This document shows, one piece after another, positions 2,255-15,011 of a stretch of DNA of 21,221 bases. How positions within the stretch are numbered: position 1 is the first letter of the stretch; every line of letters starts with the position of its first letter. The notes under the pieces are model-generated. The model saw only the letters and a program-made list of their open reading frames with translations, was not told where the DNA came from and did not search any database. A program made the position numbers and the translations under genes. This stretch comes from a virus: IMG/VR virus record IMGVR_UViG_3300028925_006839, positions 1 to 21,221 of that record; one strand, written 5' to 3'.

Positions 2255-2323
2255 AGAGCCGTTTGGTTCTTTAACCCTTTAGCCCCTGCTCAGTATTCTG
2301 GCAGGGGCGGTTGGGCTATATGT
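2255..2323 (-). promoter_or_regulatory. Intercistronic RNA element, copy A
   Basis: Coding-strand order: ACATATAG, AACC, P1 (GCCCCUGC/GCAGGGGC with inner CAG/CUG and a bulged A), UAAAGGGUUAA, P2 (AGAACC/GGCUCU, one mismatch, AAAC loop), then the start motif of the 2229 gene. It fills the gap after the stop at 2332. Confidence 0.8.
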
Positions 2324-2331
2324 CAGTGTGG

Positions 2332-2514
2332 TTAGCTGACTAAAGCAGGTTGCTCACTGAAAGGCTTGACGGTTGTAACTGTTAGCCAGTCCCGCCTCAA
2401 CGTCACTTGCATGGCGAAGTCAATCTCATCTTTACGCTCGATAAAATCTACGTCCCACGGAGCGCACCAGTAGTCGATGCCGTTGATAACGTATGCTCGG
2501 TCGCTGAATCCCAT
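2332..2514 (-). CDS. Hypothetical protein, 60 aa
   Basis: A short acidic frame (MGFSDRAYVINGIDYWCAPW...) starts at 2514 after GAAAAGGAACCGACCAA. It is the first gene after the promoter at 2558-2585 and is followed by RNA element copy A. Aromatic residues are clustered at 14-23. No domain is recognised. Start motif, promoter and spacing make it a real gene despite its size. Confidence 0.75.
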   Translation of the reverse strand: MGFSDRAYVINGIDYWCAPWDVDFIERKDEIDFAMQVTLRRDWLTVTTVKPFSEQPALVS

Positions 2515-2557
2515 TTGGTCGGTTCCTTTTCGGTCGGTCGCTAACTGCGATATATCT

Positions 2558-2585
2558 ATTATCTACACATAAAAGCTATTGTCAA
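2558..2585 (-). promoter_or_regulatory. Sigma70-type promoter
   Basis: TTGACA (2585-2580), 16 bp, GATAAT (2563-2558) on the minus strand, upstream of the 2514 gene. The leader contains ATATCGCAGTTAGC (2553-2540), also found in the leader of the 4208 gene. Confidence 0.8.
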
Positions 2586-2602
2586 TACTAATTACTTCCT
2601 GA

Positions 2603-2830
2603 TTAGTTGCCGATGTAAAGTTCGTCGTAATCTTCGTAGTAAGCAGCAAGACCGTATTCGTAATCGTCTGTGAAGTGTCCGTTGCCGTCCCAGTCCTCTT
2701 TGTCAGCCCACTCAGCTACAAGTTCCCTAGCAACGTTTTTACTTATTTTTACGTTGCCCTGTACGCCGCCGCCGAGTGCGACTCCGACGTATATCTTGCT
2801 GGCTTTGTTGATTGCTGTGCTGAGTTTCAT
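2603..2830 (-). CDS. Hypothetical acidic protein, 75 aa
   Basis: The ATG at 2830 follows AAAAGGAACCAAGACC. The N-terminal half is basic and glycine-rich (KASKIYVGVALGGGVQGNVK), while the C-terminal half is strongly acidic and tyrosine-rich (DDYEYGLAAYYEDYDELYIG), a charge layout seen in small phage proteins that bind host factors. That role is inference. It is second in a unit with the 2885-3106 gene, separated by a GCAA-capped hairpin, and its stop lies 17 nt before the next -35. Confidence 0.75.
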   Translation of the reverse strand: MKLSTAINKASKIYVGVALGGGVQGNVKISKNVARELVAEWADKEDWDGNGHFTDDYEYGLAAYYEDYDELYIGN

Positions 2831-2852
2831 GGTCTTGGTTCCTTTTAGTTCT

Positions 2853-2868
2853 GGCGGGTTGCCCCGCC
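2853..2868 (-). promoter_or_regulatory. GNRA-type hairpin in intercistronic leader
   Basis: On the minus strand GGCGGG, loop GCAA, CCCGCC: six G-C pairs closed by a GNRA tetraloop, 12 nt before the start motif of the 2830 gene. It occupies the place filled by the RNA element in other gaps but lacks ACATACA and GGGUUAA, so it is a different or reduced structure. Confidence 0.65.
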
Positions 2869-2884
2869 GGTGATGGGTGGTGAG

Positions 2885-3106
2885 TTAGTTGGTCGCTGTC
2901 ATAATGGCTGCACATTCTTCGCACCATTCTGGAACGACTGCGTGGTACTCAGCAAGTTTGCGGGTTTCGTGTCCAACAAGACTGCCGTGAGTGTCGCAGA
3001 GCGTGTACCAGTTCTGGTCATCGTCCATCCATATCTTGCTGCGGTTGTCTACTACTACGATTTGCGAGCCTGTGATTCGGTTCTTTTTTGATGTGACTTC
3101 GAGCAT
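2885..3106 (-). CDS. Small zinc-binding-type protein, 73 aa
   Basis: The start at 3106 follows AAAGGGAACCGACGACC. The C-terminal half reads WYTLCDTHGSLVGHETRKLA, then a stretch ending WCEEC. The arrangement C-x2-H ... C-x2-C suggests one structural zinc site. Small proteins with this WYT.C..HG...H.TR..A...W C..C pattern are, from memory, common in actinobacterial phages, with no assigned function. It is headed by its own promoter (3151-3179) and a palindrome that could be an operator. Confidence 0.75.
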   Translation of the reverse strand: MLEVTSKKNRITGSQIVVVDNRSKIWMDDDQNWYTLCDTHGSLVGHETRKLAEYHAVVPEWCEECAAIMTATN

Positions 3107-3132
3107 GGTCGTCGGTTCCCTTTAGTGCTTGT

Positions 3133-3151
3133 TTCGTTCCTGTGGAACGAA
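3133..3151. promoter_or_regulatory. Perfect palindrome, candidate operator or leader hairpin
   Basis: TTCGTTCC TGT GGAACGAA, eight-base arms, directly downstream of the -10 of the promoter for the 3106 gene. It could bind a dimeric repressor or fold in the leader RNA. Confidence 0.6.
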
Positions 3152-3179
3152 TGGTAAGCGCGTATGTGGCTATTGTCAA
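3151..3179 (-). promoter_or_regulatory. Sigma70-type promoter
   Basis: TTGACA (3179-3174), 17 bp, TACCAT (3156-3151) on the minus strand, upstream of the 3106 gene and just after the weak terminator of the preceding unit. Confidence 0.72.
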
Positions 3180-3194
3180 CAGCAATATTGAACT

Positions 3195-3212
3195 GCGGGA
3201 GCCTATCCCCGC
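3195..3212 (-). terminator. Weak terminator-like hairpin
   Basis: GCGGG/CCCGC arms around GATAGGCT on the minus strand, 16 nt after the stop of the 3228-4208 gene. The following sequence is only modestly U-rich (AGTTCAATATT), so termination is uncertain. Confidence 0.4.
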
Positions 3213-3227
3213 GAAAGGCTTGGTTGA

Positions 3228-4208
3228 CTAACTACTAAAATCCTTTTGGATATGTCGAAGAACTTTGGCATATTTCTTTCGGTCAGCTTCGGTAGTGACC
3301 AACTTTGCTTTGGTCGGTCGCTTGCCGAAGGCGAACTTCGGGTCATCGTCGCTTGGTGTAACCGTCGCTGTTAGCGTTACGGTCTTGCCTGTCAACATCT
3401 GGTTAGTTCCCATGATGCTGTTCGGTACTGTGACCCATAGCTTCCAGCCAGCTTCGGTCTTGACTACCATCTTCAAAGTCGAGCCGTACATTGTCTCTTG
3501 AGACTTTACCGATAGAATCTCGCCAGTGACCGTTACCTTGCCCGTAGGCGCATCGGCAGCCGTTTCAGCTTCGGTTGCCCATACTGCTTCGCGCTCGGCT
3601 CGCTCTGCGTCACGCTCGATTGTCTTTAGAACCGCTGCAAGCTGTCGCTCGGTAATTTCACCCTTGCGGTCGAAGCGTCGCATTACGTCTTGAACGAATG
3701 AGTTGGTCGAGTCGTAACCCGCTGCCAGTCCGGGGTTCTCTTTGAGTGCGGTGTTCTTGCGTTCCATGCTTCGGGTCGCTGCCGCTTTTGCTTTGGCTTC
3801 TTCACGTAACTGCTTGAAGTCGAAGGCGGTTACATTATCGAAGCGGTTATCTAGGCAATCTTCGCCGATAACGATGAGTGACTTTTCCGAGTCATTGGTC
3901 ATGAGTGCGCCGTACTTCAATCGCTGTCCACAGTGGGCGCATTGGTGAGCGTGTACGCTGTCCCGCTCGTTACCGTTACCGTTGGTAATAATGTCGGTTG
4001 ACCAGCCGTGGGATTCAAGTGCTTCGGTTTCGATTGCGAAGGGCGAAGGCTCCATGTGGCTGTGTTCAATCCAGATGCTAGGCGGGACAAACTCAACAGA
4101 GTCGATAATCTTTACCAACTTGGAAAGCTGGAATACTCCAAACAGTTCGTATGCCTGTGGGTCGAAGTTCTCTGCGCTCGGTCGGTGTATGTCTGTTCGT
4201 GTGGTCAT
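3228..4208 (-). CDS. Zinc-motif protein with C-terminal OB-like domain, 326 aa
   Basis: The largest protein of the small-gene region, transcribed alone from the promoter at 4252-4280. Residues 88-118 carry HQCAHCGQRLKYG ... VIGEDC, a C-x2-C plus distal C pattern seen in many actinophage hypothetical proteins. The middle part (135-215) is helical and highly charged. Residues 222-305 (TGKVTVTGEILSVKSQETMY and onward) have the alternating pattern of an OB-like beta barrel and end basic. Zinc plus OB architecture suggests nucleic-acid binding. This is inference from composition, not a family match. The start ATG follows GAAAAGGAACTAAGACC. Confidence 0.8.
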   Translation of the reverse strand: MTTRTDIHRPSAENFDPQAYELFGVFQLSKLVKIIDSVEFVPPSIWIEHSHMEPSPFAIETEALESHGWSTDIITNGNGNERDSVHAHQCAHCGQRLKYGALMTNDSEKSLIVIGEDCLDNRFDNVTAFDFKQLREEAKAKAAATRSMERKNTALKENPGLAAGYDSTNSFVQDVMRRFDRKGEITERQLAAVLKTIERDAERAEREAVWATEAETAADAPTGKVTVTGEILSVKSQETMYGSTLKMVVKTEAGWKLWVTVPNSIMGTNQMLTGKTVTLTATVTPSDDDPKFAFGKRPTKAKLVTTEADRKKYAKVLRHIQKDFSS

Positions 4209-4251
4209 GGTCTTAGTTCCTTTTCGGTCGGGGGCTAACTGCGATATGAAT

Positions 4252-4280
4252 ATAGTCTAGAACTCAATACCTATTGTCAA
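4252..4280 (-). promoter_or_regulatory. Sigma70-type promoter
   Basis: TTGACA (4280-4275), 17 bp, then a poor -10 GACTAT (4257-4252) on the minus strand. The leader shares ATATCGCAGTTAGC (4247-4234) with the 2514 gene, suggesting common control of the two units. Confidence 0.65.
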
Positions 4281-4318
4281 TACTTTTAGCATATCAATTT
4301 AGTCTATTAAATAAAGTT

Positions 4319-4346
4319 GCCCCGGTAGCGACCAAACTACCGGGGC
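4319..4346 (-). terminator. Strong terminator hairpin
   Basis: GCCCCGGTAG/CTACCGGGGC, ten perfect pairs with an 8-nt loop, followed on the minus strand by AACTTTATTTAA. It ends the unit whose last gene stops at 4397. Confidence 0.75.
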
Positions 4347-4357
4347 GAAAAGGAACC
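4347..4357. other. Anti-SAS sequence beside terminator
   Basis: The plus strand reads GAAAAGGAACC, so the minus-strand transcript carries GGUUCCUUUUC, the exact complement of the start motif used by the early genes, directly before the terminator hairpin. A second case lies at 15471-15480. Confidence 0.6.
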
Positions 4358-4396
4358 TGCTGCCGTTCACCTGTGGTTACTAGGCAGCAAGAAAAT

Positions 4397-4639
4397 CTAA
4401 GGTTCCATTCGTGCGTGCTTGCTCCATATCAGCTTCGGGTTGATGAACGCACCTGTCGCCATAGCGTAGATGAAGTTGCCCTCGCCTTTGCATAGCTTCC
4501 ATGCGGTGCGATTGTCGAACTGGTTCTGGTATTCGATTATGTGCGTGTATCCCTCGCTGCCACCGTGGTCTTTTCTTTCCTCAATACCGTTAGCTGCGAT
4601 AACTGCATCAACTATCGCTTTGTCATCAATGCTGGTCAT
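4397..4639 (-). CDS. Hypothetical protein, 80 aa
   Basis: The start at 4639 overlaps the stop of the preceding gene (ATGA) and has a GGAG site inside that gene. The protein (MTSIDDKAIVDAVIAANGIE...) looks soluble, with a helical N-terminus and an aromatic-rich centre. No motif or family is recognised. It is the last gene of the three-gene overlapping set 5195-4397, before a strong terminator. Confidence 0.75.
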   Translation of the reverse strand: MTSIDDKAIVDAVIAANGIEERKDHGGSEGYTHIIEYQNQFDNRTAWKLCKGEGNFIYAMATGAFINPKLIWSKHARMEP

Positions 4640-4875
4640 ATCGAGGACTCCAATGCTGCTGCTACTTCATCGTATTGAGCCTTCAACTGCTCATAGTGTG
4701 CCGCTACCACTTCATATTGAGCCTTCAACTGCTCATAGGTCGGTCGGTCGCAACGCTCGGCATGGTTACTTGGGCAAGTGCAGTCGATATGCCCCTCTCG
4801 ATACGGTTGGGCGCATACGGTGCATACGTCCATTTCAATCGTTCCATTAGTCATCACCCATTTACTGCTGCTCAT
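4636..4875 (-). CDS. Zinc-motif and coiled-coil protein, 79 aa
   Basis: I place the start at 4875, where TAATG joins it to the upstream stop and AGGTGAAGTA supplies the ribosome site; an ATG at 4911 is less likely. Residues 18-35 hold C-x2-C and C-x-C (CTVCAQPYREGHIDCTC), then another Cys. The rest is a coiled coil built on a 14-residue repeat, YEQLKAQY.VVAAH/YEQLKAQYDEVAAA. The adjacent gene carries the same two modules in the opposite order. Confidence 0.75.
   Translation of the reverse strand: MSSSKWVMTNGTIEMDVCTVCAQPYREGHIDCTCPSNHAERCDRPTYEQLKAQYEVVAAHYEQLKAQYDEVAAALESSI
4673..4738. repeat. In-frame tandem repeat, 42-nt period
   Basis: A 24-nt sequence ending CTTCAACTGCTCATAG occurs exactly at 4673-4696 and 4715-4738. 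It encodes the duplicated YEQLKAQY heptad pair of the coiled-coil protein, and the period of 14 codons keeps the helix register. Confidence 0.85.
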
Positions 4876-5195
4876 TACTTCACCTGCTCCAGTGCTGCTC
4901 GTACTTTGCAATCGTTAGCGTGGTCATATTCTTCACAGACCAAGCATGTTTGTGTACCACGGTTGCTTTCCACAGCTTCCAACGCTGCTACTAGGGCATC
5001 GTGTTGAGCCTTCAGTTTGTCAACAGTGTCCAATGTGTGGTCTATGCGTCGTGCTTCGCTACGTAACGCAGTCACGTACCCCTGTGCATATTTGTTCTGC
5101 AACAGTTTTACGGTTCCTTTGCTATCAATAAGTGTGCTGCGAACAACGGCAAAATCTTTGTCGCTCCCTTGCAGCAGTTGTGTTGCTTCGGTCAT
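4875..5195 (-). CDS. Coiled-coil and zinc-motif protein, 106 aa
   Basis: The start at 5195 follows ATAAAGGAACCGACCGAA. A helical N-terminal half leads into VDKLKAQHDALVAALEAVES, related in sequence and phase to the repeat of the next gene. It is followed by CLVCEEYDHANDC, a C-x2-C-x8-C zinc-type motif. It is first in a three-gene translationally coupled set and preceded by RNA element copy B. No family is recognised; pairing with the next gene product through the coils is plausible. Confidence 0.78.
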   Translation of the reverse strand: MTEATQLLQGSDKDFAVVRSTLIDSKGTVKLLQNKYAQGYVTALRSEARRIDHTLDTVDKLKAQHDALVAALEAVESNRGTQTCLVCEEYDHANDCKVRAALEQVK

Positions 5196-5217
5196 TTCGG
5201 TCGGTTCCTTTATCTTG

Positions 5218-5285
5218 CAGGATTGTCCCTGTTAACCCTTTAGCCCCTGCTCAGTTCGACTGGCAGGGGCGGTTGGGTTGTATGT
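5218..5285 (-). promoter_or_regulatory. Intercistronic RNA element, copy B
   Basis: ACATACA, AACC, P1 GCCCCUGC/GCAGGGGC with inner CAGU/ACUG and bulged A, UAAAGGGUUAA, P2 CAGGG/UCCUG (one G-U pair, ACAA loop), then the start motif of the 5195 gene. Confidence 0.82.
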
Positions 5286-5294
5286 GGGCGGTGG

Positions 5295-5522
5295 TTATTC
5301 GACTCCTGAGTCCATCGCCATTATTCGAATGTCGAGTGCTTCTTGAATATCCAAGCCCTTGAATAGTTGCGTGCTGAATATCTCATTAACTGCTTCGGCT
5401 GCTTCCTTGACCGGCTGCGTGATGATTGGAGCATCTTGCAGTCGAGGAGAGTTTGCTAATTTGCTAGCTGCGTCAACAAGGTTTCTGAGAACTACGATTT
5501 CGGTTGTTGTTAGGTCGGTCAT
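5295..5522 (-). CDS. Hypothetical helical protein, 75 aa
   Basis: The start at 5522 follows GAAAAGGAACTGACCGAA. The sequence (MTDLTTTEIVVLRNLVDAAS...) is mostly helix-forming and acidic, ending AMDSGVE. No motif is recognised. It sits between RNA element copies C and B, which mark both of its borders as intercistronic. Confidence 0.72.
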   Translation of the reverse strand: MTDLTTTEIVVLRNLVDAASKLANSPRLQDAPIITQPVKEAAEAVNEIFSTQLFKGLDIQEALDIRIMAMDSGVE

Positions 5523-5545
5523 TTCGGTCAGTTCCTTTTCTTATG

Positions 5546-5612
5546 CAGGAAAGTTCCTGTTAACCCTTTAGCCCCTGCTCAGTCAGGCTGGCAGGGGCGG
5601 TTGGGTGTATGT
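5546..5612 (-). promoter_or_regulatory. Intercistronic RNA element, copy C
   Basis: ACATACA, AACC, P1 GCCCCUGC/GCAGGGGC with inner CAG/CUG and bulged A, UAAAGGGUUAA, P2 CAGGA/UCCUG with ACUU loop, then the start motif of the 5522 gene. Confidence 0.82.
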
Positions 5613-5621
5613 GGCTATTGA

Positions 5622-6020
5622 CTAGAAGTTGTAGTCGTAGTGCTTGCTGGCTCCGAGGCTGGCGTTCTTGCCGTCGGATACGAAACGCTGCTTCTTGTTG
5701 CTCCAGTTCATCTTGCGGACGTATCCAGCTTCGTCGCTCTCAATGTCCCAAACTTGCTTGCCAGAAGTGTGTGCTGCGAAGCCACCGACTGTCTGGACTA
5801 GGGTGGATTCGTCACGGTTGAGTGTGGCGTTCATGCTGCGGATAGTTGCCTGTTGCCCGGTCTTGGATACTGCAATAATTTCGTAAGGGTTACTGTCAGT
5901 CCAGCCGTGAAGTGTGATGCCCTGTCCAACCTTGATATCAGCGGGGTTGAATGACTTAGGTGCTACATCGCTGAGATTGAAGAAGTGGTGAGCCTGTTTG
6001 ATTTGAAGTTCGGTAGTCAT
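5622..6020 (-). CDS. Hypothetical protein, 132 aa
   Basis: The start at 6020 follows CGAAGGAACCGACCACC. Residues 30-60 (VGQGITLHGWTDSNPYEIIA) and the C-terminal VWDIESDEAGYVRKMNW.. are beta-rich. The pattern of a potential SH3-like barrel with 'trouble converting' residues around S/T-D resembles widespread phage hypotheticals, but I do not assign a family. First gene after the promoter at 6072-6099, which shares a 57-bp leader with another unit. Confidence 0.75.
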   Translation of the reverse strand: MTTELQIKQAHHFFNLSDVAPKSFNPADIKVGQGITLHGWTDSNPYEIIAVSKTGQQATIRSMNATLNRDESTLVQTVGGFAAHTSGKQVWDIESDEAGYVRKMNWSNKKQRFVSDGKNASLGASKHYDYNF

Positions 6021-6021
6021 G

Positions 6022-6078
6022 GTGGTCGGTTCCTTCGGTCTTTTGGTCGTATCGAAAATGTCGATGTAATAAATCTAC
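6022..6078 (-). repeat. 57-bp leader repeat, copy 1
   Basis: Identical to 7253-7309. It spans the -10 region (GTAGATTTATT), a small hairpin (AUCGA/UCGAU around CAUUU) and the start motif CGAAGGAACCGACCAC of the downstream gene. Upstream of it only the -35 is shared. Confidence 0.9.
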
Positions 6079-6099
6079 AGGCTTTCCCAGTGTTGTCAA
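6072..6099 (-). promoter_or_regulatory. Sigma70-type promoter
   Basis: TTGACA (6099-6094), 16 bp, TAGATT (6077-6072) on the minus strand, driving the 6020 gene. The exact -10 register is uncertain; TTTATT just downstream is an alternative. Confidence 0.72.
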
Positions 6100-6125
6100 T
6101 AGCAATGTTAAGGCAATTCTGTCGG

Positions 6126-6593
6126 CTAGTCCTTCCACTGGTCGCCGTATGAACCGCAGACGTTACCAGCGGAATCACGGTGGTAACAGGCGTTCATGCT
6201 GTGCTGGTACTGTCGGCAGTCGTGACCGCTTCGGAACTTCCAGCCGCCTTTGATTTTGCGAACATGCCCGACCTCAAAGTTGCTGCCAGCCTCGCCCATC
6301 AAGATGTATTCGTCAGCCTGTTTGTAAACGTTTCCGTAGTAAACCGTTGCGCCGTCCCGCATCTTGCCGTCGATGTAAAAGCCTTTGGTGCGAATTCCGT
6401 TGTCAGTCTCTATGACGTTGACTGGCGAATTGAACAACTTGTCATCGTAGTCCCAGTCGCTCAGTTTTCGATACCAGCGATAAGTGTGGATTGCGTAGGT
6501 TGTGTCTGTGTCTACGCCTGTGCCGTCCCATGTGCCGGTCTGGTGAACTGCTGTGACAGTCTTGGCGTTCTTGCGTGAAACTTGGATTCCCAT
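6126..6593 (-). CDS. Hypothetical protein with Cys/His-rich C-terminus, 155 aa
   Basis: The start at 6593 follows GAAAAGGAACCGACCAA. The protein is beta-rich and aromatic (TYRWYRKLSDWDYDDKLF). Near the end HDCRQYQHSMNACYH and VCGS provide Cys and His in possible metal-binding spacing. No family is recognised. It is the last gene of the unit starting at 7303-7332 and ends 27 nt before the next -35. RNA element copy D precedes it. Confidence 0.77.
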   Translation of the reverse strand: MGIQVSRKNAKTVTAVHQTGTWDGTGVDTDTTYAIHTYRWYRKLSDWDYDDKLFNSPVNVIETDNGIRTKGFYIDGKMRDGATVYYGNVYKQADEYILMGEAGSNFEVGHVRKIKGGWKFRSGHDCRQYQHSMNACYHRDSAGNVCGSYGDQWKD

Positions 6594-6620
6594 TTGGTCG
6601 GTTCCTTTTCGTTACGGTCT

Positions 6621-6684
6621 ACGGTCGCCTGACCGTTTTAACTCCTAAACCCGGCATGAAGCCGGGCATTGGGTGGGTGTATGT
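6621..6684 (-). promoter_or_regulatory. Intercistronic RNA element, copy D (subtype 2)
   Basis: ACATACA, P1 CCCGGC/GCCGGG with UUCAU loop, UUUAGGAGUUAA, P2 ACGGUC/GACCGU with AGGC loop, then the start motif of the 6593 gene. Confidence 0.82.
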
Positions 6685-6695
6685 GCGGTTGGTGG

Positions 6696-6959
6696 TTAGT
6701 GGAATTTGACCATGCTGCGAATTTCGTCAGCAGTCTTTCCATGCTCGTCCGCTGCGGCGTGTAGCCAACCATCAAACGAGTCAGCAATTGCCTCGTCCCG
6801 CTTTATCTCAGCAAGTGCTTCTTCTGCATCAGCCCTGTTGTAGTGAGTTGAATCAACAACCGGGTGAGTAGGGTGCGGGTCAATAACCACGAACATGGTT
6901 CTTTCGCCTTGACTTGCTATGAATGTGTTCAGCTTCTGTTCAATAATTTCGTATGCCAT
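6696..6959 (-). CDS. Hypothetical protein, 87 aa
   Basis: The start at 6959 follows GAAAAGGAACCGACCAA. The protein has a short beta segment (TMFVVIDPHPTHPV), then acidic helices (NRADAEEALAEIKRDEAIAD), ending VKFH. This strand-then-helix order is common in small phage accessory proteins with no known role. It is flanked by RNA element copies E and D. Confidence 0.74.
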   Translation of the reverse strand: MAYEIIEQKLNTFIASQGERTMFVVIDPHPTHPVVDSTHYNRADAEEALAEIKRDEAIADSFDGWLHAAADEHGKTADEIRSMVKFH

Positions 6960-6981
6960 TTGGTCGGTTCCTTTTCGTATG

Positions 6982-7047
6982 CAGGGAAACCCCTGTTAAC
7001 CCTTTAGCCCCTGCTCGACGAATCGGCAGGGGCGGTGGGTTGTATGT
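6982..7047 (-). promoter_or_regulatory. Intercistronic RNA element, copy E
   Basis: ACATACA, AACCC, P1 GCCCCUGC/GCAGGGGC with inner CGA/UCG, UUCG loop and bulged A, UAAAGGGUUAA, P2 CAGGG/CCCUG with GUUU loop, then the start motif of the 6959 gene. Confidence 0.83.
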
Positions 7048-7059
7048 GTCGTTGGTTGT

Positions 7060-7251
7060 TTAGTTGCGAACTCTGATAACCGTTTCAGTCAGCGATGCTT
7101 TCAAGGCTTTCATTTCTTCAGATGTAAACCTGATGGTGTCGGTTCGGTCGTAGTAAGAGTTGTATCGGTTCAAATACCACACGCCTTCTTTGGCGTTACG
7201 TGTCAGCTTTACGTTGTCTGTGACGTTGATATCCCGGTTACTGTTAGGCAT
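7060..7251 (-). CDS. Hypothetical protein, 63 aa
   Basis: The start at 7251 follows CGAAGGAACCGACCACA. A basic small protein (MPNSNRDINVTDNVKLTRNA...), predicted as beta hairpins plus one helix (TSEEMKALKASL). No family is recognised. It is the first gene of its unit, under the second copy of the 57-bp leader. Confidence 0.73.
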   Translation of the reverse strand: MPNSNRDINVTDNVKLTRNAKEGVWYLNRYNSYYDRTDTIRFTSEEMKALKASLTETVIRVRN

Positions 7252-7252
7252 T

Positions 7253-7309: not shown

Positions 7310-7332
7310 TCCCCTTGTTTTTCTATTGTCAA
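7303..7332 (-). promoter_or_regulatory. Sigma70-type promoter
   Basis: TTGACA (7332-7327), 18 bp, TAGATT (7308-7303) on the minus strand. It lies 6 nt after the stop codon of the 7339-7533 gene. Confidence 0.7.
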
Positions 7333-7882: not shown

Positions 7883-7914
7883 TAGTCGGTTCCTTTTCGT
7901 ACTTGTTTAGTTTT

Positions 7915-8060
7915 AGATGCGTCCATCTGGCGGTGTACCACTTGCCAACTTCTTAAGTCTTTGTTGCCCGTTGCGTTAGGGCTGTGGCTTCGACGGAGAG
8001 CATCTGTTAACCCATAAGCCCCTGCTCGGTTAGACCGGCAGGGGCGGTTGGGCTGTATGT
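7915..8060 (-). promoter_or_regulatory. Intercistronic RNA element, copy F (expanded P2)
   Basis: ACATACA, AACC, P1 GCCCCUGC/GCAGGGGC with inner CGGU/ACCG and bulged A, UUAUGGGUUAA, then P2 AGAUGC (8005-8000) pairing with GCAUCU (7920-7915) across 79 nt. The start motif of the 7882 gene follows. The 190-nt gap holds no gene. Confidence 0.72.
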
Positions 8061-8073
8061 CGAAGCGGTGTGT

Positions 8074-8700
8074 CTACTTAGTCCCCCTGTATGCTTCTTT
8101 AGCGTTCTTGAAGTACCTAAGTTCGACAGCGTGTATCAGAGCAGTTAATTCTGCTACGTCAATTTCGACTTTACCTGACCAATTGATTCGCATATTTTCG
8201 GCTACATCAGGGTAGAGAAGTGTGATGTTGCCCAGTAGGTAACGCGTTTCGTTGTCCCGTTTATTGTCAGCTTCGGCAGCTTCACGACGAGCGATGCGGT
8301 CGGCTTCGTTTCGTTCACTTCTCTTGATTGCTGAAGTTATAACGCCCATGTGCAAGCCGCACATTCGGACAATTTTTTCAGACCCGGTTAAGTGTGCTTC
8401 GCCGCTTGTAACCCATGCAGAATTCTTTAATCCGTAGCCGTCATAAATCATGTCGCCAACTGCTGGCTTACAGCATTGGTTTCCGTTCCAATCTTGCAAG
8501 CTGACCTGACAGATGTTTTCTGCACAGTCTTGGCATGTTCCTGCACCGTTTAGTGCAAGGACGCTTTCGCCAATTCCACGACGGTATGCCTCGTCAGCGT
8601 TATTAGGTGTCTCGCCGCAACCTTCGCAAAAGTCGTGGTTATTAGGGTTCGTGTACCCTCGGCGGCGTGCAAGTGCTTCGTAAAATAAGTCGCTAGTCAT
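8074..8700 (-). CDS. Cysteine-rich hypothetical protein, 208 aa
   Basis: The start at 8700 follows CGAAAAGGAACTGACCA. The N-terminal part carries CEGCGE (25-30), CQDCAENIC (56-64) and a CC pair near 76, in spacing fit for two treble-clef or ribbon zinc sites, then MCGLHM. The middle (125-155) is a charged helix (KRSERNEADRIARREAAEAD). The C-terminus is alpha/beta with no motif. The zinc sites suggest nucleic-acid or protein binding. No family is recognised. Confidence 0.78.
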   Translation of the reverse strand: MTSDLFYEALARRRGYTNPNNHDFCEGCGETPNNADEAYRRGIGESVLALNGAGTCQDCAENICQVSLQDWNGNQCCKPAVGDMIYDGYGLKNSAWVTSGEAHLTGSEKIVRMCGLHMGVITSAIKRSERNEADRIARREAAEADNKRDNETRYLLGNITLLYPDVAENMRINWSGKVEIDVAELTALIHAVELRYFKNAKEAYRGTK

Positions 8701-8722
8701 TGGTCAGTTCCTTTTCGTTTGA

Positions 8723-8783
8723 CAGAGAAGCCTCTGTTAACTCCTAAACCCGGCATGAAGCCGGGCGTTGGGTGGGTGTATGT
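8723..8783 (-). promoter_or_regulatory. Intercistronic RNA element, copy G (subtype 2)
   Basis: ACATACA, AAC, P1 CCCGGC/GCCGGG with UUCAU loop, UUUAGGAGUUAA, P2 CAGAG/CUCUG with GCUU loop, then the start motif of the 8700 gene. Confidence 0.82.
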
Positions 8784-8794
8784 GGATTAGTGAG

Positions 8795-9004
8795 TTACTC
8801 AGTGAATAAATCGTTCTCTATCAGCATATCTTTCGCAAAGATGCCGATGATGCCCTTAGTCTCTTTTCCGTCGAGCAGAAGTTGCACCTGTTCTTCAACG
8901 TCGTTTGCTTTCAAATCTGCATACCCAAACTCTTTCAAATTGGCGTGGATATTCAAGCAGATTGCCTTGAAGTTATCTCGGAGAGTTTTGTTCTTCTCGT
9001 CCAT
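8795..9004 (-). CDS. Hypothetical protein, 69 aa
   Basis: I start it at 9004 because AAAAGGAACCAGTA lies directly before that ATG; a Met at 9025 would fall upstream of the ribosome site. The protein (MDEKNKTLRDNFKAICLNIH...) is helical and acidic, resembling small phage proteins without known role. Flanked by RNA element copies H and G. Confidence 0.75.
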   Translation of the reverse strand: MDEKNKTLRDNFKAICLNIHANLKEFGYADLKANDVEEQVQLLLDGKETKGIIGIFAKDMLIENDLFTE

Positions 9005-9027
9005 TACTGGTTCCTTTTCTCGCACCT

Positions 9028-9090
9028 AGAACCGCTTGGTTCTTTAACTCCTAAACCCGGCATAGAGCCGGGCGTTGGTTGTTTGTATGT
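9028..9090 (-). promoter_or_regulatory. Intercistronic RNA element, copy H (subtype 2)
   Basis: ACATACA, AAC, P1 CCCGGC/GCCGGG with UCUAU loop, UUUAGGAGUUAA, P2 AGAACC/GGUUCU with AAGC loop, then the start motif of the 9004 gene. The stop of the upstream gene is 9 nt before ACATACA. Confidence 0.83.
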
Positions 9091-9099
9091 GGGCGGCGG

Positions 9100-9291
9100 T
9101 TAGTCAGCCCAGATAGCCTCGTTCTCTGCCTCTGCTGCGAGTACAGCAGACTTGCGATACTGAACCGAGTCAGCCGATGGGTCATCGAACTGGCAAGCCG
9201 TGACCGTGATGGTCGTAGCGTTGAAATCACTCGCACCAGCGAGGACTTGCACATCTTCCCACTTGCATCGTGGGCAGGTTGTAAGGGGCAT
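9100..9291 (-). CDS. Small protein with N-terminal CxxC, 63 aa
   Basis: The start at 9291 follows CGAAAAGGAACCGACCC. MPLTTCPRCKWEDVQVL opens like a zinc ribbon, but the second half of the site is reduced to one Cys (TACQ). The rest is an acidic helix. It is first in its unit, driven by the promoter at 9336-9362 with a candidate operator. No family is recognised. Confidence 0.72.
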   Translation of the reverse strand: MPLTTCPRCKWEDVQVLAGASDFNATTITVTACQFDDPSADSVQYRKSAVLAAEAENEAIWAD

Positions 9292-9335: not shown

Positions 9336-9362
9336 TTACTACACATGCTTCAGTGTTGTCAA
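9336..9362 (-). promoter_or_regulatory. Sigma70-type promoter
   Basis: TTGACA (9362-9357), 15 bp, TAGTAA (9341-9336) on the minus strand; GTAAAA at 17-bp spacing is an alternative -10. The stop codon TGA of the upstream gene is part of this -35. Confidence 0.68.
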
Positions 9363-9762: not shown

Positions 9763-10314
9763 TCACAAACGATTTATAAGCAGCCTATCGTGATGCGTTA
9801 GCCCAACTGCTAGAGCTGACCATACATGACCACTGATGCCATGCAAAACCCCGGCTGGCGTTACAGTTCCACGCCCTTCGCAATCATCGCAAGATTCATG
9901 GTCACGACCGAGCCAGCCTTTCCCTTTACAGCCTTTGCATTTCTTCCCGCCTATTGCAATCTCATCACCGCCGTAGTGGTCTATCAATGCTTGCCGAATC
10001 GTGCTGTCGTTCGCTCTAGGTGAGCCGCACAGAGCCAGCTTCACATCTGGACGAGTAACATACGTCACCATCAATGCCGAAGCCTCTGCGTGACGGTCGA
10101 ACCGACCAGTCCAGCGGATTGTCTGGAATACGTCTTTACCGACCGGCATACCGTAGTGAGCAATATCCTCAATGGCTAACGGAGATTGGAACTTATTTAT
10201 GAGCGCATAAATCTTTTCGTTATCCGACCAGCCCCAATCAATAGGCACGCTGTCCTCGATGTAGCACCACCCTGACTTCGTTGTACCGGGGTCGATTGCA
10301 AGTAAGTTGCTCAT
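9763..10314 (-). CDS. RuvC-like Holliday junction resolvase with DnaJ-type zinc finger
   Basis: 183 aa of RNase H fold. Residues 4-17 (LLAIDPGTTKSGWC) give the first catalytic Asp (D8) in the RuvC DPG signature; E49 in LAIED is the second acid. YGMPVGKDVF and the C-terminal SALAVGLTH resemble phage RuvC-like proteins. Between them, residues 126-149 form CKGCKGKGW and CDDCEGRG, two CxxCxGxG halves of a DnaJ-style zinc finger. The last acid of the classical HxxD is S166 (HVWS). Likely role: resolving branched replication intermediates before packaging. The start overlaps the upstream stop (ATGA). Confidence 0.85.
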   Translation of the reverse strand: MSNLLAIDPGTTKSGWCYIEDSVPIDWGWSDNEKIYALINKFQSPLAIEDIAHYGMPVGKDVFQTIRWTGRFDRHAEASALMVTYVTRPDVKLALCGSPRANDSTIRQALIDHYGGDEIAIGGKKCKGCKGKGWLGRDHESCDDCEGRGTVTPAGVLHGISGHVWSALAVGLTHHDRLLINRL

Positions 10315-10643
10315 CGTGTATTCCCTTCAAGTCCTACTCTTGCCGATGGTCGCCAGCCGCAAGCGAAACACGCAACAGCATCTTCGTAATGACTGCCGTT
10401 CCCGTATATCAATTTGCCAGAACACTTCGGGCAAACTGTCATTGCTGATGTGTCCTCGACTTCTACTTCATGCTTCGATAACTCAACCTGCTCGCCTCTG
10501 GTGTACCCGTAGACATTCCGATTCTTTGCTGACAGCCGAACGCACTCTCGACATTCTTCGATGACCACGCCATGCTTCCGTCGGTGTTGAGTATTCGGCT
10601 TTGTCATGCTGTGACCAGCGGTGCATGTCTTTGCTTCTACCAT
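10311..10643 (-). CDS. Two-zinc-module protein, 110 aa
   Basis: I start it at 10643, just after AACGAAAGGAACTTGGA; an upstream GTG at 10736 lacks a ribosome site and would overlap the previous gene, although that stretch (CSFENCPSSLEC) is Cys-rich and could be genuine. Module 1: CTAGH (7-11) with CREC (31-34). Module 2: CPKC (71-74) with CFAC (92-95), a classical zinc ribbon. Such arrangements bind nucleic acid or modify nucleases. Coupled to the RuvC-like gene, so likely works in the same recombination step. Confidence 0.75.
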   Translation of the reverse strand: MVEAKTCTAGHSMTKPNTQHRRKHGVVIEECRECVRLSAKNRNVYGYTRGEQVELSKHEVEVEDTSAMTVCPKCSGKLIYGNGSHYEDAVACFACGWRPSARVGLEGNTR

Positions 10644-10692
10644 TCCAAGTTCCTTTCGTTTACGAATACATTCCAAGCTACTAGGACAGTTT

Positions 10693-11058
10693 TCAAAACT
10701 GCATTTCGGACTGTGTTCCGTCAACATTGCAAACACACGTTTTGCAATGTGAGCGGACGTTGATACCGTTCGGGTCTACTCCAACCCACCAGCGTTGCTG
10801 ACTATGCCCGTTGAACTTATGTTCGCCGTCTGGATAAACCTTTCCAGCGTTGTGCAGGTCAGCCATTCTGCGACTAATCTGATGAGAGTCTAAATCTGTG
10901 ACTGTGGCATATTGCCCACCAGTTCCACCCTGCCGCTTTTTCACGGCAGCCAGTAAGATTTCGGCTTGCGTATACCTTGCGCCACTTTCGGTTATTTCTT
11001 TTGCAGCCTTATGGCTTGTTGCCGGGTCGGTATTTCGTCGCCCTGTTAAACCGTCCAT
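10693..11058 (-). CDS. Winged-helix DNA-binding protein, 121 aa
   Basis: The ATG at 11058 has AGGGGGG at 9-nt spacing and lies one base after the primase stop; a GTG at 11067 is too close to that site. RRNTDPATSHKAAKEI (7-22) and YTQAEILLAAVKKRQGG, then HQISRRMADLHNAGKV (59-74), match a phage winged HTH family. The tail SHCKTCVC has closely spaced cysteines. It probably binds DNA next to the replication machinery or regulates it. Confidence 0.75.
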   Translation of the reverse strand: MDGLTGRRNTDPATSHKAAKEITESGARYTQAEILLAAVKKRQGGTGGQYATVTDLDSHQISRRMADLHNAGKVYPDGEHKFNGHSQQRWWVGVDPNGINVRSHCKTCVCNVDGTQSEMQF

Positions 11059-11059
11059 A

Positions 11060-13069
11060 TCACGCACCCCCCTGCGGTAGCTGAATACTGATAAGCGTCC
11101 AAGCGTTACTCATTCCATCGACCCGTATAAACGTATCGGTCATGCGCTCTAGCGTCGCAAGAATCACGTTCTCTGGTGAGTCTGTTCTTTGGCTCAGTTG
11201 GTCAACAGTCATTGAGCCATTCCGCATCAACCCAATCAGCCGTTCCCGTAGCCCTGTTCCTTTCGCAAGTTCTGGCACAGTCTGAATATCTTGGGCAACA
11301 TACCTGATAGATGCGTTGTCAGATTCGGTGCTGCCACTGAACTCAACATCGTAAGCAACCGGGGCTATCAGTTTTGAGCGGTTCGACTTTTCGTGGTACA
11401 GCCCAAGCACCGGGTTAGTCTCTGGCTCAGAAATGCTCGTTAGTCTGAAAACCTGTCTCGCTAAATTCCAAAAAAATCGACTTCCAAAGAGCGTGTCCGA
11501 TTTGTTGGTGTGAGTAATGGCAATCGAAGCCACATTCAGCGACCGAACAGAGTTATGGAACAGCCTCGCTGCTTCTGCATCGGTTACGTCGCCACCAGCC
11601 GAAGCCACAAGTGAGTCCACGATTATTAGTTCAATATCGTTTTCGACAATGATTTCAACCAGTTCGTCACAATGGTCAATAAATGCGCCGCTCATACTCT
11701 GATAATGAATATGATTGTCAGGTATTTTATGTTGCGCTCCACGGCTGATTTCTTTCAGCATACTTGCCACATCATCATCGTCAGCTTCCCAGTCAAGGTA
11801 GAGGGTTTTTATTGGTCGCCCTGCCGTATTACTGATGCCGGGAATAAACGATTTCTGTGTTGCACCTGTCGCTGCTACTGCAAGAGCAAACGTAGATTTT
11901 CCAGAGCCACCGTCAGCATATAGAACCGTACTTTGATTCTGCCGAACAAGCGGGAATATCAAATAAGGGCTATCGTTTTTCGGAACGTGCCTTGCAAGGT
12001 CTATCGTCACGCCCGGCTTCTCTGAATGGCTGTCCACCGTCGCTGCTATCTGGTGCAGTATTGAGTTCCAATCAGCAAGCGGGTGCTGCTGCATCAGGTA
12101 GTCAATGATTTCCTTGCGGCTGCGCTGGTCGTACAGGCTCACAGAAGCCATGTAAATCATTCCACGTTTGCCAGTCCACACTTTCATCTTCGCGTAGGCT
12201 CTAGTGCCTCGCCTATCTATCTTGCTCAACTCAACGCGAATGTCTGGCTCTGCCCAATAGAAGGTCGTGCGCCGCTCGGTCTGAGATTCCACCATCGGCG
12301 GGTCAACTAGCTTGCCGCTGTATTGCAGTTTCTTCCCTGCGTCGTATCGCATCGCCGAAGCAACAATGCTCGCAACTTCATTGTCAGGAAGTGGCGGGTC
12401 GTTCTTTGCATTTGCTTCGTCGAGAAGCATCTGCATTTCTTCGGCTTCATGCCCCATCTGCCGATACGCCGCAGCGAGTCGGAACAGTCGGTCATTGCGG
12501 TTGCCCTGCAACGCTCCGTTGCCCTGCAACTCTGCGACCCAATTCTTTACAGTTGATTGGTTCGCTTGGTAGCCGTTCTTGAATATCGGCGGGAAGTCCC
12601 AAGTCGCAACAGGTGTTTCATTCAATGCTGTATAAGTTACTCCATCGACCTCAGAGCCAGCCGCTACGACATAGCCACCAGTATTCCGTATGTCGCACTT
12701 CTCGACCCGTCCTGCTGACTGGCTAATCGTTGCGTCGTACTGAAAATATAAATGCCAGCCTCTTGGAGTTTTCACCCCATAAGTCGGTGGCGGTGGCTTG
12801 AATCCCGGCAACGCCTTCATCTTCGCCATTGAGGTCGTTCGGTCATCAAGGTCGAGTACGGTCAGCCCTGATGCTTCACCCGTTGCGATTCCTACATTTG
12901 CATTTGGATACTCGCCCCACAGAATTCTGATTGTGTTCGGGTTATCGGTCGCATCTTTAGAGCCATGCTCTTGAAGTGCTGATGCAATAGGAATTTTCTT
13001 ATTGGGTTGCAGCGCGAGAACCTTCCAGCCTCGCGCTGCATATGCCAATGCGTAATCTACTTTATTCAT
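11060..13069 (-). CDS. Primase-polymerase / helicase fusion, 669 aa
   Basis: The N-terminal 1-165 is a bifunctional primase/polymerase (prim-pol, archaeo-eukaryotic primase fold): VGIATGEASGLTVLDLDD supplies the metal-binding D73/D75 and TPRGWHLYF the conserved H106. A helical linker (175-245, PriCT-like) follows. Residues 370-540 are a RecA-fold helicase/ATPase of the AAA_25/RepA type: Walker A GGSGKST (387-393), LYLDWEADDDD (423-433), Walker B LIIVDS (481-486) and ITHTNKSD. A winged-helix-like end spans 605-660. It should unwind DNA and make primers at phage forks. Start at 13069 after AGAAGGAACCAAGACC. Confidence 0.93.
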   Translation of the reverse strand: MNKVDYALAYAARGWKVLALQPNKKIPIASALQEHGSKDATDNPNTIRILWGEYPNANVGIATGEASGLTVLDLDDRTTSMAKMKALPGFKPPPPTYGVKTPRGWHLYFQYDATISQSAGRVEKCDIRNTGGYVVAAGSEVDGVTYTALNETPVATWDFPPIFKNGYQANQSTVKNWVAELQGNGALQGNRNDRLFRLAAAYRQMGHEAEEMQMLLDEANAKNDPPLPDNEVASIVASAMRYDAGKKLQYSGKLVDPPMVESQTERRTTFYWAEPDIRVELSKIDRRGTRAYAKMKVWTGKRGMIYMASVSLYDQRSRKEIIDYLMQQHPLADWNSILHQIAATVDSHSEKPGVTIDLARHVPKNDSPYLIFPLVRQNQSTVLYADGGSGKSTFALAVAATGATQKSFIPGISNTAGRPIKTLYLDWEADDDDVASMLKEISRGAQHKIPDNHIHYQSMSGAFIDHCDELVEIIVENDIELIIVDSLVASAGGDVTDAEAARLFHNSVRSLNVASIAITHTNKSDTLFGSRFFWNLARQVFRLTSISEPETNPVLGLYHEKSNRSKLIAPVAYDVEFSGSTESDNASIRYVAQDIQTVPELAKGTGLRERLIGLMRNGSMTVDQLSQRTDSPENVILATLERMTDTFIRVDGMSNAWTLISIQLPQGGA

Positions 13070-13099
13070 GGTCTTGGTTCCTTCTGGATTTGGTTGTAA

Positions 13100-13792
13100 T
13101 TACCACGGAAGTTCTGTTACGTCCTCTGCTGGTGGCGGTGCTGATTCTACGCTAGTAACTACGCCACCAGCTTGTATCGCCGCATTGACCATTGGCGTGT
13201 CTGGAATCTCAGGCAATTCCGACTCGTTCAGTTTTGCCAACGCTCGTTCTCTTACGCTGTCCCGCATCATCAGCATCGCTGTGTCGAAGTATGCGACCAG
13301 TAATGCTTCCTGCTGCTCCACTGGAAGCTGTGCCAGAATCTCATGGTCAAGGTTGTTATAAAACGATTGCTCACGTATCGAGTTATTTCGACGGGTTTCT
13401 CTATCATCGGCAAAGGGCGATGCAATAAGCGCGGGTGCGTTATTACCCTGTGCAGCCCCTTGCTGCGTCTGTACTGGCGCAGTAGCCCCGCCTAACGCCT
13501 TGATTCGGCTGATGTTCTGGTAGCGTTTGCCGTTAGCCTTGTGACCGCCGAGCGATAACACAACCTCGGACGGTGCGCCTTGAACAATGTTTGTAGCTGC
13601 GCCCTGATATGTCCAGAAGCCTTCCAAGTCCTCAAATGCCCAACCACCGAACTCGCCTTGCAGCTTCGGTATCAGTTGCATTGGCGGCGATTGAACGAGT
13701 TCCGTTCCATCTTTGCTAGTTACTGGTGTCTCTCCATCAGGCTTTAGGACTTTCTGCCAGTCGATTTGAATGGTTCCGTATTCGCTCGTCAT
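13100..13792 (-). CDS. Possible single-stranded DNA-binding protein, 230 aa
   Basis: Residues 1-100 are beta-rich with aromatic residues (GGWAFEDLEGFWTYQG, GKRYQNISRIKAL). A flexible Gln/Ala/Gly linker follows (105-120), then a helical domain and a proline-rich tail ending AEDVTELPW. An acidic tail with a hydrophobic tip is the hallmark by which SSBs recruit partners. Position directly upstream of the primase/helicase supports the role. No clear OB signature can be confirmed by eye. The start overlaps the upstream stop (TAATG), with AAGGGG as ribosome site. Confidence 0.5.
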   Translation of the reverse strand: MTSEYGTIQIDWQKVLKPDGETPVTSKDGTELVQSPPMQLIPKLQGEFGGWAFEDLEGFWTYQGAATNIVQGAPSEVVLSLGGHKANGKRYQNISRIKALGGATAPVQTQQGAAQGNNAPALIASPFADDRETRRNNSIREQSFYNNLDHEILAQLPVEQQEALLVAYFDTAMLMMRDSVRERALAKLNESELPEIPDTPMVNAAIQAGGVVTSVESAPPPAEDVTELPW

Positions 13793-13986
13793 TAGTTTGT
13801 TCCCCTTGCCGCTGCTGCGGCTGCTTCTTTACTTTTCACAATCTGCTGACAACGCTGCGATGTAAGGTCGAAACCTAGTCGCAACATTTCTCTACTTATT
13901 TTGTTGTACGACACGCCCTTGCGGTGCATGTCGATGATGATTCTATTGCGCGGCGTGTCCGCTGCGCCCTTAATAATTCGTGCCAT
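13792..13986 (-). CDS. Small helix-turn-helix protein, 64 aa
   Basis: MARIIKGAADTPRNRIIIDM leads into RKGVSYNKISREMLRLGFDL and TSQRCQQIVKS, a resolvase/repressor-like HTH (about residues 22-50). The N-terminus is basic. Joined to both neighbours by TAATG overlaps. Likely a DNA-binding accessory or regulator of the replication operon. Confidence 0.72.
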   Translation of the reverse strand: MARIIKGAADTPRNRIIIDMHRKGVSYNKISREMLRLGFDLTSQRCQQIVKSKEAAAAAARGTN

Positions 13987-14375
13987 TAGTTTCGCTTCTT
14001 AACTTTCTGCCTGATGGTTAGTTCTGGCGTTCCATCTTGTTTAGCGAAGTCGATAATGCGCTTTATCTCGCCGCCCTTCTTCGCTTCTTTAGTTAGCTTA
14101 GTTTTGTTGAATTTCGGAATCGCTACCTTGTTCTGCAATGACTTGATTTCTTCAGAGTCGTAATGCTCCAGTAGCGGAATCAATGCTTCCTCATTCCATT
14201 TGGTCGGTGCTTTGATTTCAGCTACCCAACCATCGTCCTCATAAAGCACAGCATCATCTTCTTCCAACTGCTGTTTTATTTGCTCCGTAACAATTCCAAT
14301 ATCTTTGTTCAGTTTCACACGCTCTTGCTTCAATCCGTCCAGCGTGTCCAGCCTTGCTCTAATATCAATCTTCAC
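13986..14375 (-). CDS. Hypothetical coiled-coil protein, 129 aa
   Basis: The GTG start at 14375 follows CGAAAGGAACTGAT. Residues 1-42 are a coiled coil (LDGLKQERVKLNKDIGIVTE). A conserved-looking DGWVAEIKAPTKWNEEALIP core follows, then a very basic tail (KVKKRN). The layout of a coiled coil plus a short alpha/beta core is common in phage replication operons, but I do not recognise the family. The basic end suggests DNA contact. Confidence 0.75.
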   Translation of the reverse strand: MKIDIRARLDTLDGLKQERVKLNKDIGIVTEQIKQQLEEDDAVLYEDDGWVAEIKAPTKWNEEALIPLLEHYDSEEIKSLQNKVAIPKFNKTKLTKEAKKGGEIKRIIDFAKQDGTPELTIRQKVKKRN

Positions 14376-14397
14376 ATCAGTTCCTTTCGTTAGTTGC

Positions 14398-14429
14398 GGG
14401 GCAACACCAATGTCCGTCGGTGCTGCCCC
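14398..14429 (-). promoter_or_regulatory. Strong leader hairpin with G-U pair
   Basis: On the minus strand GGGGCAGCACC pairs with GGTGTTGCCCC over 11 positions, one of them G-U, around a 10-nt loop. On the plus strand that position is an A-C mismatch, so the structure belongs to minus-strand RNA. It lies between RNA element copy I and the start motif of the 14375 gene. Confidence 0.7.
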
Positions 14430-14432
14430 TTA

Positions 14433-14515
14433 CCGGGTTCAGTGAGGCGTTCCCATTGCCCGGTTAACCCATAAGACCCACGACGCTGTGCGAGGTGGGT
14501 CTGTGGGCTGTATGC
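14433..14515 (-). promoter_or_regulatory. Intercistronic RNA element, copy I (divergent)
   Basis: GCATACAGCCCACA, P1 GACCCAC/GUGGGUC with inner CGC/GCG, UUAUGGGUUAA, P2 CCGGG/CCCGG around 21 nt. P1 is wholly different in sequence from the other copies yet still pairs. Confidence 0.72.
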
Positions 14516-14526
14516 GGGTTGGTGGG

Positions 14527-14916
14527 TTAGAGGTCGCCTGATTTTTGTTCAGCCATTCGTTTGTCTTGCTTCCGAATCCAAGCCGCTTCTTTTCCAGAGC
14601 GACTTCGGTTTTCCTTCTGCAAGGTTTTCGACTGAGACTGTATGCGACTAATCACACGCCCATCAACTTTGATTCGTTGCGAGTCGCCGAACTCGTCCGT
14701 CCATTCTAAGAACGCTGTGATTTCACCGTCGGTGCTTCGGACAACAACGATGTTGACCACGTACTCAGGCAAGGTCAGAGTCTCTGGTACAACCACCGTT
14801 GAGCGTTTGTAATTCGACCAACCGTCATGGTTGTCGTGCATAGCGTCCCTGCGTGTCTCATGCCACCCATAAGGGTCACGCCACGGTGCTGCTTCTGTGC
14901 CGGGTCTTGGTTCCAT
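14527..14916 (-). CDS. Hypothetical protein, 129 aa
   Basis: The start at 14916 follows GAAAAGGAACAAGACCA. The N-terminal third is rich in Trp, His and Asp (RDPYGWHETRRDAMHDNHDG); the middle is beta-rich (EYVVNIVVVRSTDGEITAFL); the end is basic and helical. No family is recognised. RNA element copies J and I lie on its two sides. Confidence 0.73.
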   Translation of the reverse strand: MEPRPGTEAAPWRDPYGWHETRRDAMHDNHDGWSNYKRSTVVVPETLTLPEYVVNIVVVRSTDGEITAFLEWTDEFGDSQRIKVDGRVISRIQSQSKTLQKENRSRSGKEAAWIRKQDKRMAEQKSGDL

Positions 14917-14941
14917 TGGTCTTGTTCCTTTTCTCGTTCCT

Positions 14942-15011
14942 CAAAGCGATTTGCTTTGTTAACCCTTTAGCCCCTGCTCAGTTGGACTGGCAGGGGCTGT
15001 TGGGCTGTATG
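14942..15011 (-). promoter_or_regulatory. Intercistronic RNA element, copy J
   Basis: CCATACA, AAC, P1 GCCCCUGC/GCAGGGGC with inner CAGU/ACUG and bulged A, UAAAGGGUUAA, P2 CAAAGC/GCUUUG with AAAUC loop, then the start motif of the 14916 gene. Confidence 0.82.

Follow-up and report, generated by a model that had tools for sequence, protein, structure and literature searches.

Why should ten gaps between the genes of a single phage carry versions of the same hairpin-bearing sequence? The question is raised by IMGVR_UViG_3300028925_006839, a virus record of 21,221 bases from IMG/VR (taken whole, the window), nearly all of whose genes lie on the minus strand. An earlier note on this DNA, made from its letters alone, had proposed a selected RNA element in these gaps. 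We refer to this element as the linker. Comparison of the window with its relatives suggests that the linker is a selected cis-acting RNA structure between cistrons, with compensatory change in two helices (P1 and P2), and this conclusion is well supported. Our favored reading of its function, to which we assign a probability of about 0.5 from sequence evidence, is that the linker replaces the promoter leader at internal junctions of the early operons, so that the downstream cistron is expressed as an independent unit.

Architecture of the linker unit

All ten gaps followed the order described in the earlier note on the coding (minus) strand, and the element is present in each; the unit itself is larger than first delimited, extending from the upstream stop codon to the AUG of the next gene. 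From 5' to 3', it comprises the upstream stop (UAA, usually as UAACCACC), a C/A-rich spacer, CAUA(C/A)A, an outer helix, P1, GUUAA, P2, about 10 nt, the start motif (C)GAAAAGGAACC, and AUG. In 21 of 24 copies, 11-17 nt separate the stop (TAACCACC...) from CATA, and two copies with the real stop 24 and 49 nt away still hold a UAA at 11 and 13 nt, indicating that the UAA belongs to the repeat. Between the stop and CATA, the composition was 49% C, 38% A, and 5% G, compared with 26% G genome-wide. Most copies have 79-95 nt from CATA to AUG; those with an enlarged P2 are among the exceptions.

The heptamer ACATACA, previously given as common to all ten gaps, was exact in seven of them, the others reading ACATATA (2255), GCATACA (14433), and CCATACA (14942); the motif CAUA(C/A/U)A was present in nearly all copies across the relatives. 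Pairing of AAC(C) with (G)GUU, also put forward earlier, did not prove general. CCC/GGG makes up most of the outer helix, and in some copies the neighboring A or G extends it to the UU; in the copies with GGAGUUAA, the outer helix is shifted and only about 2 bp long. P1 occurs with three apical shapes, namely a bulge (type A), no interruption (type B), and a 2x2 internal loop (type C). P2 is compact and directly follows GUUAA in eight of the ten window copies, among them the copy at 2255 with its A.C mismatch; the copies at 7915 and 14433 instead form P2 over a longer range, around an enlarged loop.

All ten units are on the minus strand. Type A P1 was present in linker unit 1 (2230-2334; CATATA, GGGUUAA, P2 AGAACC/GGCUCU with one A.C mismatch, start motif GAAAAGGAACC, AUG at 2229), unit 2 (5196-5297; P2 CAGGG/UCCUG, start motif AUAAAGGAACC), unit 3 (5523-5624; P2 CAGGA/UCCUG), unit 5 (6960-7062; apical CGA/UCG, P2 CAGGG/CCCUG), unit 6 (7883-8076; apical CGG/CCG, long-range P2 AGAUGC...GCAUCU with an enlarged loop), and unit 10 (14917-15035; P2 CAAAGC/GCUUUG), the last having its conserved TAA 11 nt before CATA and the gene's own stop farther upstream. 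Type B P1 was present, together with GGAGUUAA, in unit 4 (6594-6698; GCCCGGC/GCCGGGU, P2 ACGGUC/GACCGU), unit 7 (8701-8797; P2 CAGAG/CUCUG), and unit 8 (9005-9102; P2 AGAACC/GGUUCU). Unit 9 (14376-14529) has type C P1 (GACCCAC/GUGGGUC), P2 CCGGG...CCCGG with a long loop, and an extra hairpin before the start motif.

The most conserved parts of the unit are the unpaired ones (GUUAA and CAUA), and the helix sequences drift. GUUAA, which lies unpaired between P1 and P2, was present in 25/25 copies collected, by a search guided in part by GUUAA. Taking GUUAA as the stop of a leader peptide was rejected because the distance from CATA to GTTAA is not constant in frame. The conservation of GUUAA and CAUA over drifting helices is what a binding platform would be expected to leave, on which a phage or host RNA-binding protein reads CAUAMA, the internal loop, and the GUUAA held by P1 and P2, and switches the internal cistrons together. 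We regard such a platform as rather unlikely: the apical shape of P1 varies among types A, B, and C, the loops of P2 are unrelated among copies, no candidate protein was identified, and the uniform GUUAA count came from a search that leaned in part on that motif.

Covariation in P1 and P2

In 18 type A sequences, the inner P1 helix was 100% paired, with four pairs doubly changed. Its covariation score was 0.185 versus 0.080 in shuffles (0/500), and the signal was lost when the partner was slid; the score was also computed on a 14-sequence version. Types B and C amount to replacement of the whole helix, and between the orthologous type C helices of the window and contig G002 (GCCCCAC/GUGGGGC in the latter) an A-U pair is swapped for C-G. 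For P2, 95% of the cells were paired in ten compact 6-bp hairpins versus 66% in shuffles, 6/6 pairs were doubly changed, and the loops were free. The per-copy hairpin tests of P2 combined to a p of about 7e-11, over copies that are related and so not independent. The covariation thus extends across relatives and is not confined to paralogous copies, in agreement with the RNA structure first proposed.

The earlier note had suggested a covariance model and a search of viral metagenomes. The model of P1, trained on type A copies only, recovered the type B and type C copies of the window with E values of 1e-4 to 1e-7 (3e-4 for unit 4 and 1e-7 for unit 9, types absent from the training set), as well as untrained copies in relatives (e.g., L124:1523, E 7e-17), and the IMG/VR relatives brought the collection to 25 copies.

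Inverted repeats in many copies are commonly DNA-binding or mobile, and a feature acting as DNA (a protein site, a transposon end, or a replication hairpin) would also form such repeats. We consider this highly improbable, since the linker has a single orientation relative to the genes and always lies between a stop and a start, no target duplications were seen, and the scores of the model dropped sharply on the opposite strand (e.g., from 72 to 26 bits in L119). In addition, G.U pairs recur on the coding strand, together with one A.C mismatch, as expected of an RNA of that strand; minimum-energy folding biases this count. An integron attC site (RYYYAAC / GTTRRRY cores) was likewise rejected: there are GCCCAAC-like 5' cores, but the 3' side is GUUAA and the base helix CCC/GGG.

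Linkers and promoters at early gene junctions

Next, we examined the junctions of the early region, from 15.4 kb to 1.7 kb. It has 17 gaps of at least 60 nt, of which ten carry a linker and seven a TTGACA box, none carrying both and none neither; genes that overlap or nearly touch their neighbor have neither element. This split suggests that the linker marks promoterless junctions that have their own downstream start motif, and it bears out the earlier remark that linkers never stand behind promoters. The first early transcription unit has its TTGACA box at 15409-15414 (minus strand), and equivalent boxes are present at 9362, 7332, 6099, 4280, 3179, and 2585, each followed by a start motif without a linker. 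The predicted leaders of these promoters are about 37-45 nt long. Two promoters (7320-7251 and 6080-6020) have a nearly identical leader (TTATTACATCGACATTTTCGATACGACCAAAAGACCGAAGGAACCGACCAC).

No promoter-like site was called inside any linker, and a candidate promoter there (TTAACA ... TAAAGG) was rejected, as no -10 box was consistent among copies and the Shine-Dalgarno sequence (SD) would lie within the promoter. Neither was a coding-strand terminator called in any of the ten, as had been noted before; an intrinsic terminator was rejected because no U-tract follows the linker hairpins. U-tract terminators were found on the coding strand of the window at 15467, 4346, and 1628, together with one weak intragenic site at 7196. 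Dense TAAGTAACTTA-type repeats at 15680-15580 and 1510-1390 flank both boundaries between the structural and early blocks; binding sites or replication signals are possible roles for them.

With its C-rich, G-poor spacer, which resembles Rho-loading RNA, and its strong GC hairpin in P1, the linker might instead attenuate or pause transcription, by tail-less or Rho-dependent termination or as an antitermination signal, so that expression is graded along the operon. Linkers have no U-tract in a region that has proper U-tract terminators, strong termination would silence the downstream genes because no promoter follows the linkers, and P2 would be left without a role. We therefore think attenuation distinctly unlikely.

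Relatives and exchange of genes

The recognizable genes of the window encode a DNA methyltransferase, a terminase small subunit, a Prim-Pol/AAA replication protein, a Holliday junction resolvase, and a staphylococcal-type nuclease. Comparison with the phage GenBank collection gave no DNA match to the window and no close DNA relative. Relatives were gathered from IMG/VR using a DNA pattern and the large terminase (TerL) of G002, revealing 25 distinct linker copies in seven contig groups: the window (with the near-identical G003 and G004), G002 (3300006736_000048), L119, L123, L124/L212, L125, and L211. Wherever TerL was seen, that of the linker-bearing contigs was at least 84% identical to TerL of G002. 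The covariance model found no linker in TerL relatives at or below 83% identity, in cellular genomes, or at the other loci tested, nor in those contigs with the start motif only (G005-G012) and those of 69 loose pattern matches that fall outside the clade. In Rfam, nothing reached the gathering threshold of any family, and one chance match (E 0.4) lay elsewhere. The linker family is thus real yet narrow, its copies being confined to one clade. The unrelated contigs G008, G009, and G010 (L111, L112, and L032) have the same start motif, AAAAGGAACCGACCAAATG, without the double-hairpin linker, and at two places (L111:275 and L112:1085) this motif stands behind a single GC hairpin.

Within the clade, P1 type, P2 type, and leader reappear in differing combinations beside unrelated genes. 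The window and G003 (L106) are identical through linker 1 up to the AUG and then continue into different open reading frames (ORFs), in flanks more than 99% identical; the exchanged ORF is 2229-1652 of the window, and the incoming G003 ORF is a paralogue of window 5295-5522. The swap exactly at the AUG and the recombined P1, P2, and leader types indicate that the stop-to-start repeats also serve as exchange boundaries. The same observations could mean that the linker is mainly a recombination boundary, allowing whole ORFs to be exchanged by homologous recombination with their frames intact. This strikes us as improbable, because it leaves the helix-preserving substitutions in P1 and P2, the coding-strand G.U pairs, and the exclusion of promoters unexplained, and the swapping of ORFs may be a side effect of the repeats; an exchange-boundary role by itself would not preserve the helices. 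The inclusion of the stop and C/A-rich spacer in the unit, the shuffling of P1 and P2 types, the ORF swap at the AUG, and the anti-start RNAs described below were absent from the earlier note.

Proposed function of the linker

We return to the favored reading, in which the linker stands in for a promoter leader. The C/A-rich, almost G-free spacer would keep the mRNA unfolded for ~15 nt past the stop, roughly what a terminating ribosome covers, and P1 and P2 would fold just past that ribosome. There they may halt run-on and re-initiation by ribosomes arriving from upstream, with P2 holding the start motif single-stranded for fresh 30S subunits. Both helices might, in addition, cap the stretches of mRNA that flank them: were the transcript cut in GUUAA, P1 would shield the 3' end of the upstream message, and P2 would do the same for the 5' end of the downstream message. 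Such a cut would leave a leader of ~37-40 nt, and the match to the promoter leaders (~37-45 nt) is suggestive. The stop-to-start position, single orientation, helices, and exclusion of promoters are features of the window itself; from these we infer the insulation of cistrons and any cleavage at GUUAA, the cut being the least certain step of the mechanism.

Several points weigh against this proposal. In at least 3/25 copies P2 is impaired (L124:1523 has a weak P2, L124:3646 a displaced one, and L211_739 a broken one), and it therefore cannot be strictly required everywhere. Many copies are paralogues linked by recombination, and the independent events are fewer than the cells counted. GUUAA fits none of the RNase sites that could be tested, and sequence does not distinguish insulation of translation from RNA processing.

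Hairpins between the cistrons of phages and bacteria (ompA-type 5' stems and REP elements) can cap ends left by processing and decouple the expression of neighboring genes, and the linker resembles them in consisting of hairpins between cistrons. We know of no intercistronic hairpin that recurs ten times in one phage operon system as a homologous unit running from stop to start, with two helices that covary.

Complements of the start motif upstream of terminators

A perfect complement (10-12 nt) of the start motif CGAAAAGGAACC, GGUUCCUUU(U), occurs on the coding strand only directly upstream of terminator hairpins. These anti-start sequences were found in four lineages, with two copies in the window (15480 and 4357), two in G002, and one each in L124 and L125. 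Two of the three coding-strand terminators of the window are preceded by the complement (GGUUCCUUUU; 4357-4346 and 15480-15470). A pattern match in L217 was dismissed as chance, since the strand that matches has no start motifs and the match appears to lie in coding sequence.

The first of the window copies lies at an early-operon 3' end (4309-4390, minus strand), which consists of a hairpin (UGCUGCC/GGCAGCA, 4389-4358), the anti-start GGUUCCUUUUCG (4357-4346), and a terminator hairpin with a T-rich tail (4346-4319). Nine of the ten linkers belong to early operons upstream of this terminator. The site was kept in G002 and L125 and was diverged and covarying in L124, where the stems of the two hairpins on either side are wholly changed and the anti-start is retained. 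The 15480 copy looks like a free-standing small RNA (sRNA) of ~110 nt (15431-15558, minus strand), with an extended -10 box (TGGTATGAT, 15558-15550), the anti-start GGUUCCUUUUG from 15480, and a terminator at 15467-15440; the putative sRNA has an orthologue in G002 (L104:7518-7700). In L124, three U in the anti-start correspond to three A in the start motifs, and in the window four U to four A, which constitutes one covarying event only. Predicted duplexes had energies of -19.7/-17.7 kcal/mol for cognate and -12.8/-15.3 kcal/mol for crossed pairs. Upstream of the terminase region, a candidate late leader (1200-1315, minus strand) holds GGUUCCUCU ... AGAGGAACC, which could pair in cis; it overlaps, at 1315-1200, a block 88% identical in G002.

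We tentatively propose that the linker and start motif may be one half of a two-part RNA control, in which phage RNAs ending in terminators shut off or hold back all the cistrons. Each early cistron would offer an unpaired CGAAAAGGAACC, behind either a promoter or a double-hairpin linker, and the ~110-nt sRNA and the operon 3' untranslated region (3'-UTR) would carry its exact complement, silencing the cistrons, for example, at the switch from early to late expression. The same principle, with unrelated sequences, may operate in the cluster K mycobacteriophages.

Many non-structural genes of a cluster K phage share a start-associated sequence (SAS), and the extended form (ESAS) was cited in the earlier note as the precedent for the linker. 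The two systems are alike in having a start motif of more than SD length in many non-structural genes of one phage, an extra upstream element at about half of the motif copies, in gaps of more than 50 bp, and one reverse-oriented motif copy away from gene starts (PMC3203893, PMC11373665). The precedent did not hold for the linker itself: the inverted repeats of ESAS show no RNA-type covariation (PMC3203893) and ESAS contain SigA-like promoters (PMC11373665), being promoter-containing DNA, whereas the linker excludes promoters, has two covarying RNA helices, begins at a stop codon, and is unrelated in sequence. Membership in ESAS was accordingly rejected, as the linkers have no SigA-like promoter (linker and TTGACA being exclusive over the 17 gaps) and lack the 17-bp inverted repeats before the 13-bp SAS GGGATAGGAGCCC, having CGAAAAGGAACC as start motif and other helices.

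One reverse SAS of unexplained meaning has been reported in cluster K (PMC3203893). In Adephagia (L216:30683) and Anaya (L215:31871), we found that the reverse SAS makes up the loop CCUCCUAUCCCC of a strong hairpin, which lies in a long gap between genes, and in Adephagia the interval holding this anti-SAS hairpin is the reported start of late transcription (PMC11373665). The anti-SAS region was found in 124 Mycobacterium phages, some records annotating a hypothetical ORF across it. The loop was kept in eight of nine phages examined (including L219-L225), with stem pairs changing compatibly; the loop of DarthP reads CCCTCCTTCCCC. As an independent case, the cluster K hairpin raises the probability that start motifs are targets of RNA.

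A proven bacterial precedent is the anti-SD of the icaR 3'-UTR in Staphylococcus aureus (PMC3868564), which pairs with the SD region as GGUUCCUUUU before the phage terminators could, and as in an icaR-like system the phage complement covaries with the SD it would match (four genomes, one covarying event). It differs in that icaR pairs with its own single mRNA, whereas the phage complement fits a motif common to many genes. Citrobacter phage Mordin also has a repeated SAS-like motif (26 bp) just before the start codons of several genes, but neither RNA structure nor an intercistronic double hairpin was reported for it (PMC4611695). A literature search that missed most subscription papers found no report of a phage anti-SD RNA system.

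Implications

The linker represents an undescribed, covariation-supported phage RNA family marking promoterless gene junctions, and together with the anti-start complements it suggests an undescribed viral route to the control of many genes at once. It offers a concrete and testable answer to the long-open question of why an over-long start motif is common to many genes in some phages. If anti-start RNAs act as proposed, one antisense RNA could regulate tens of phage genes, and the unexplained SAS of cluster K, which includes phages used in therapy and genetics, would gain a mechanism testable in laboratory M. smegmatis.

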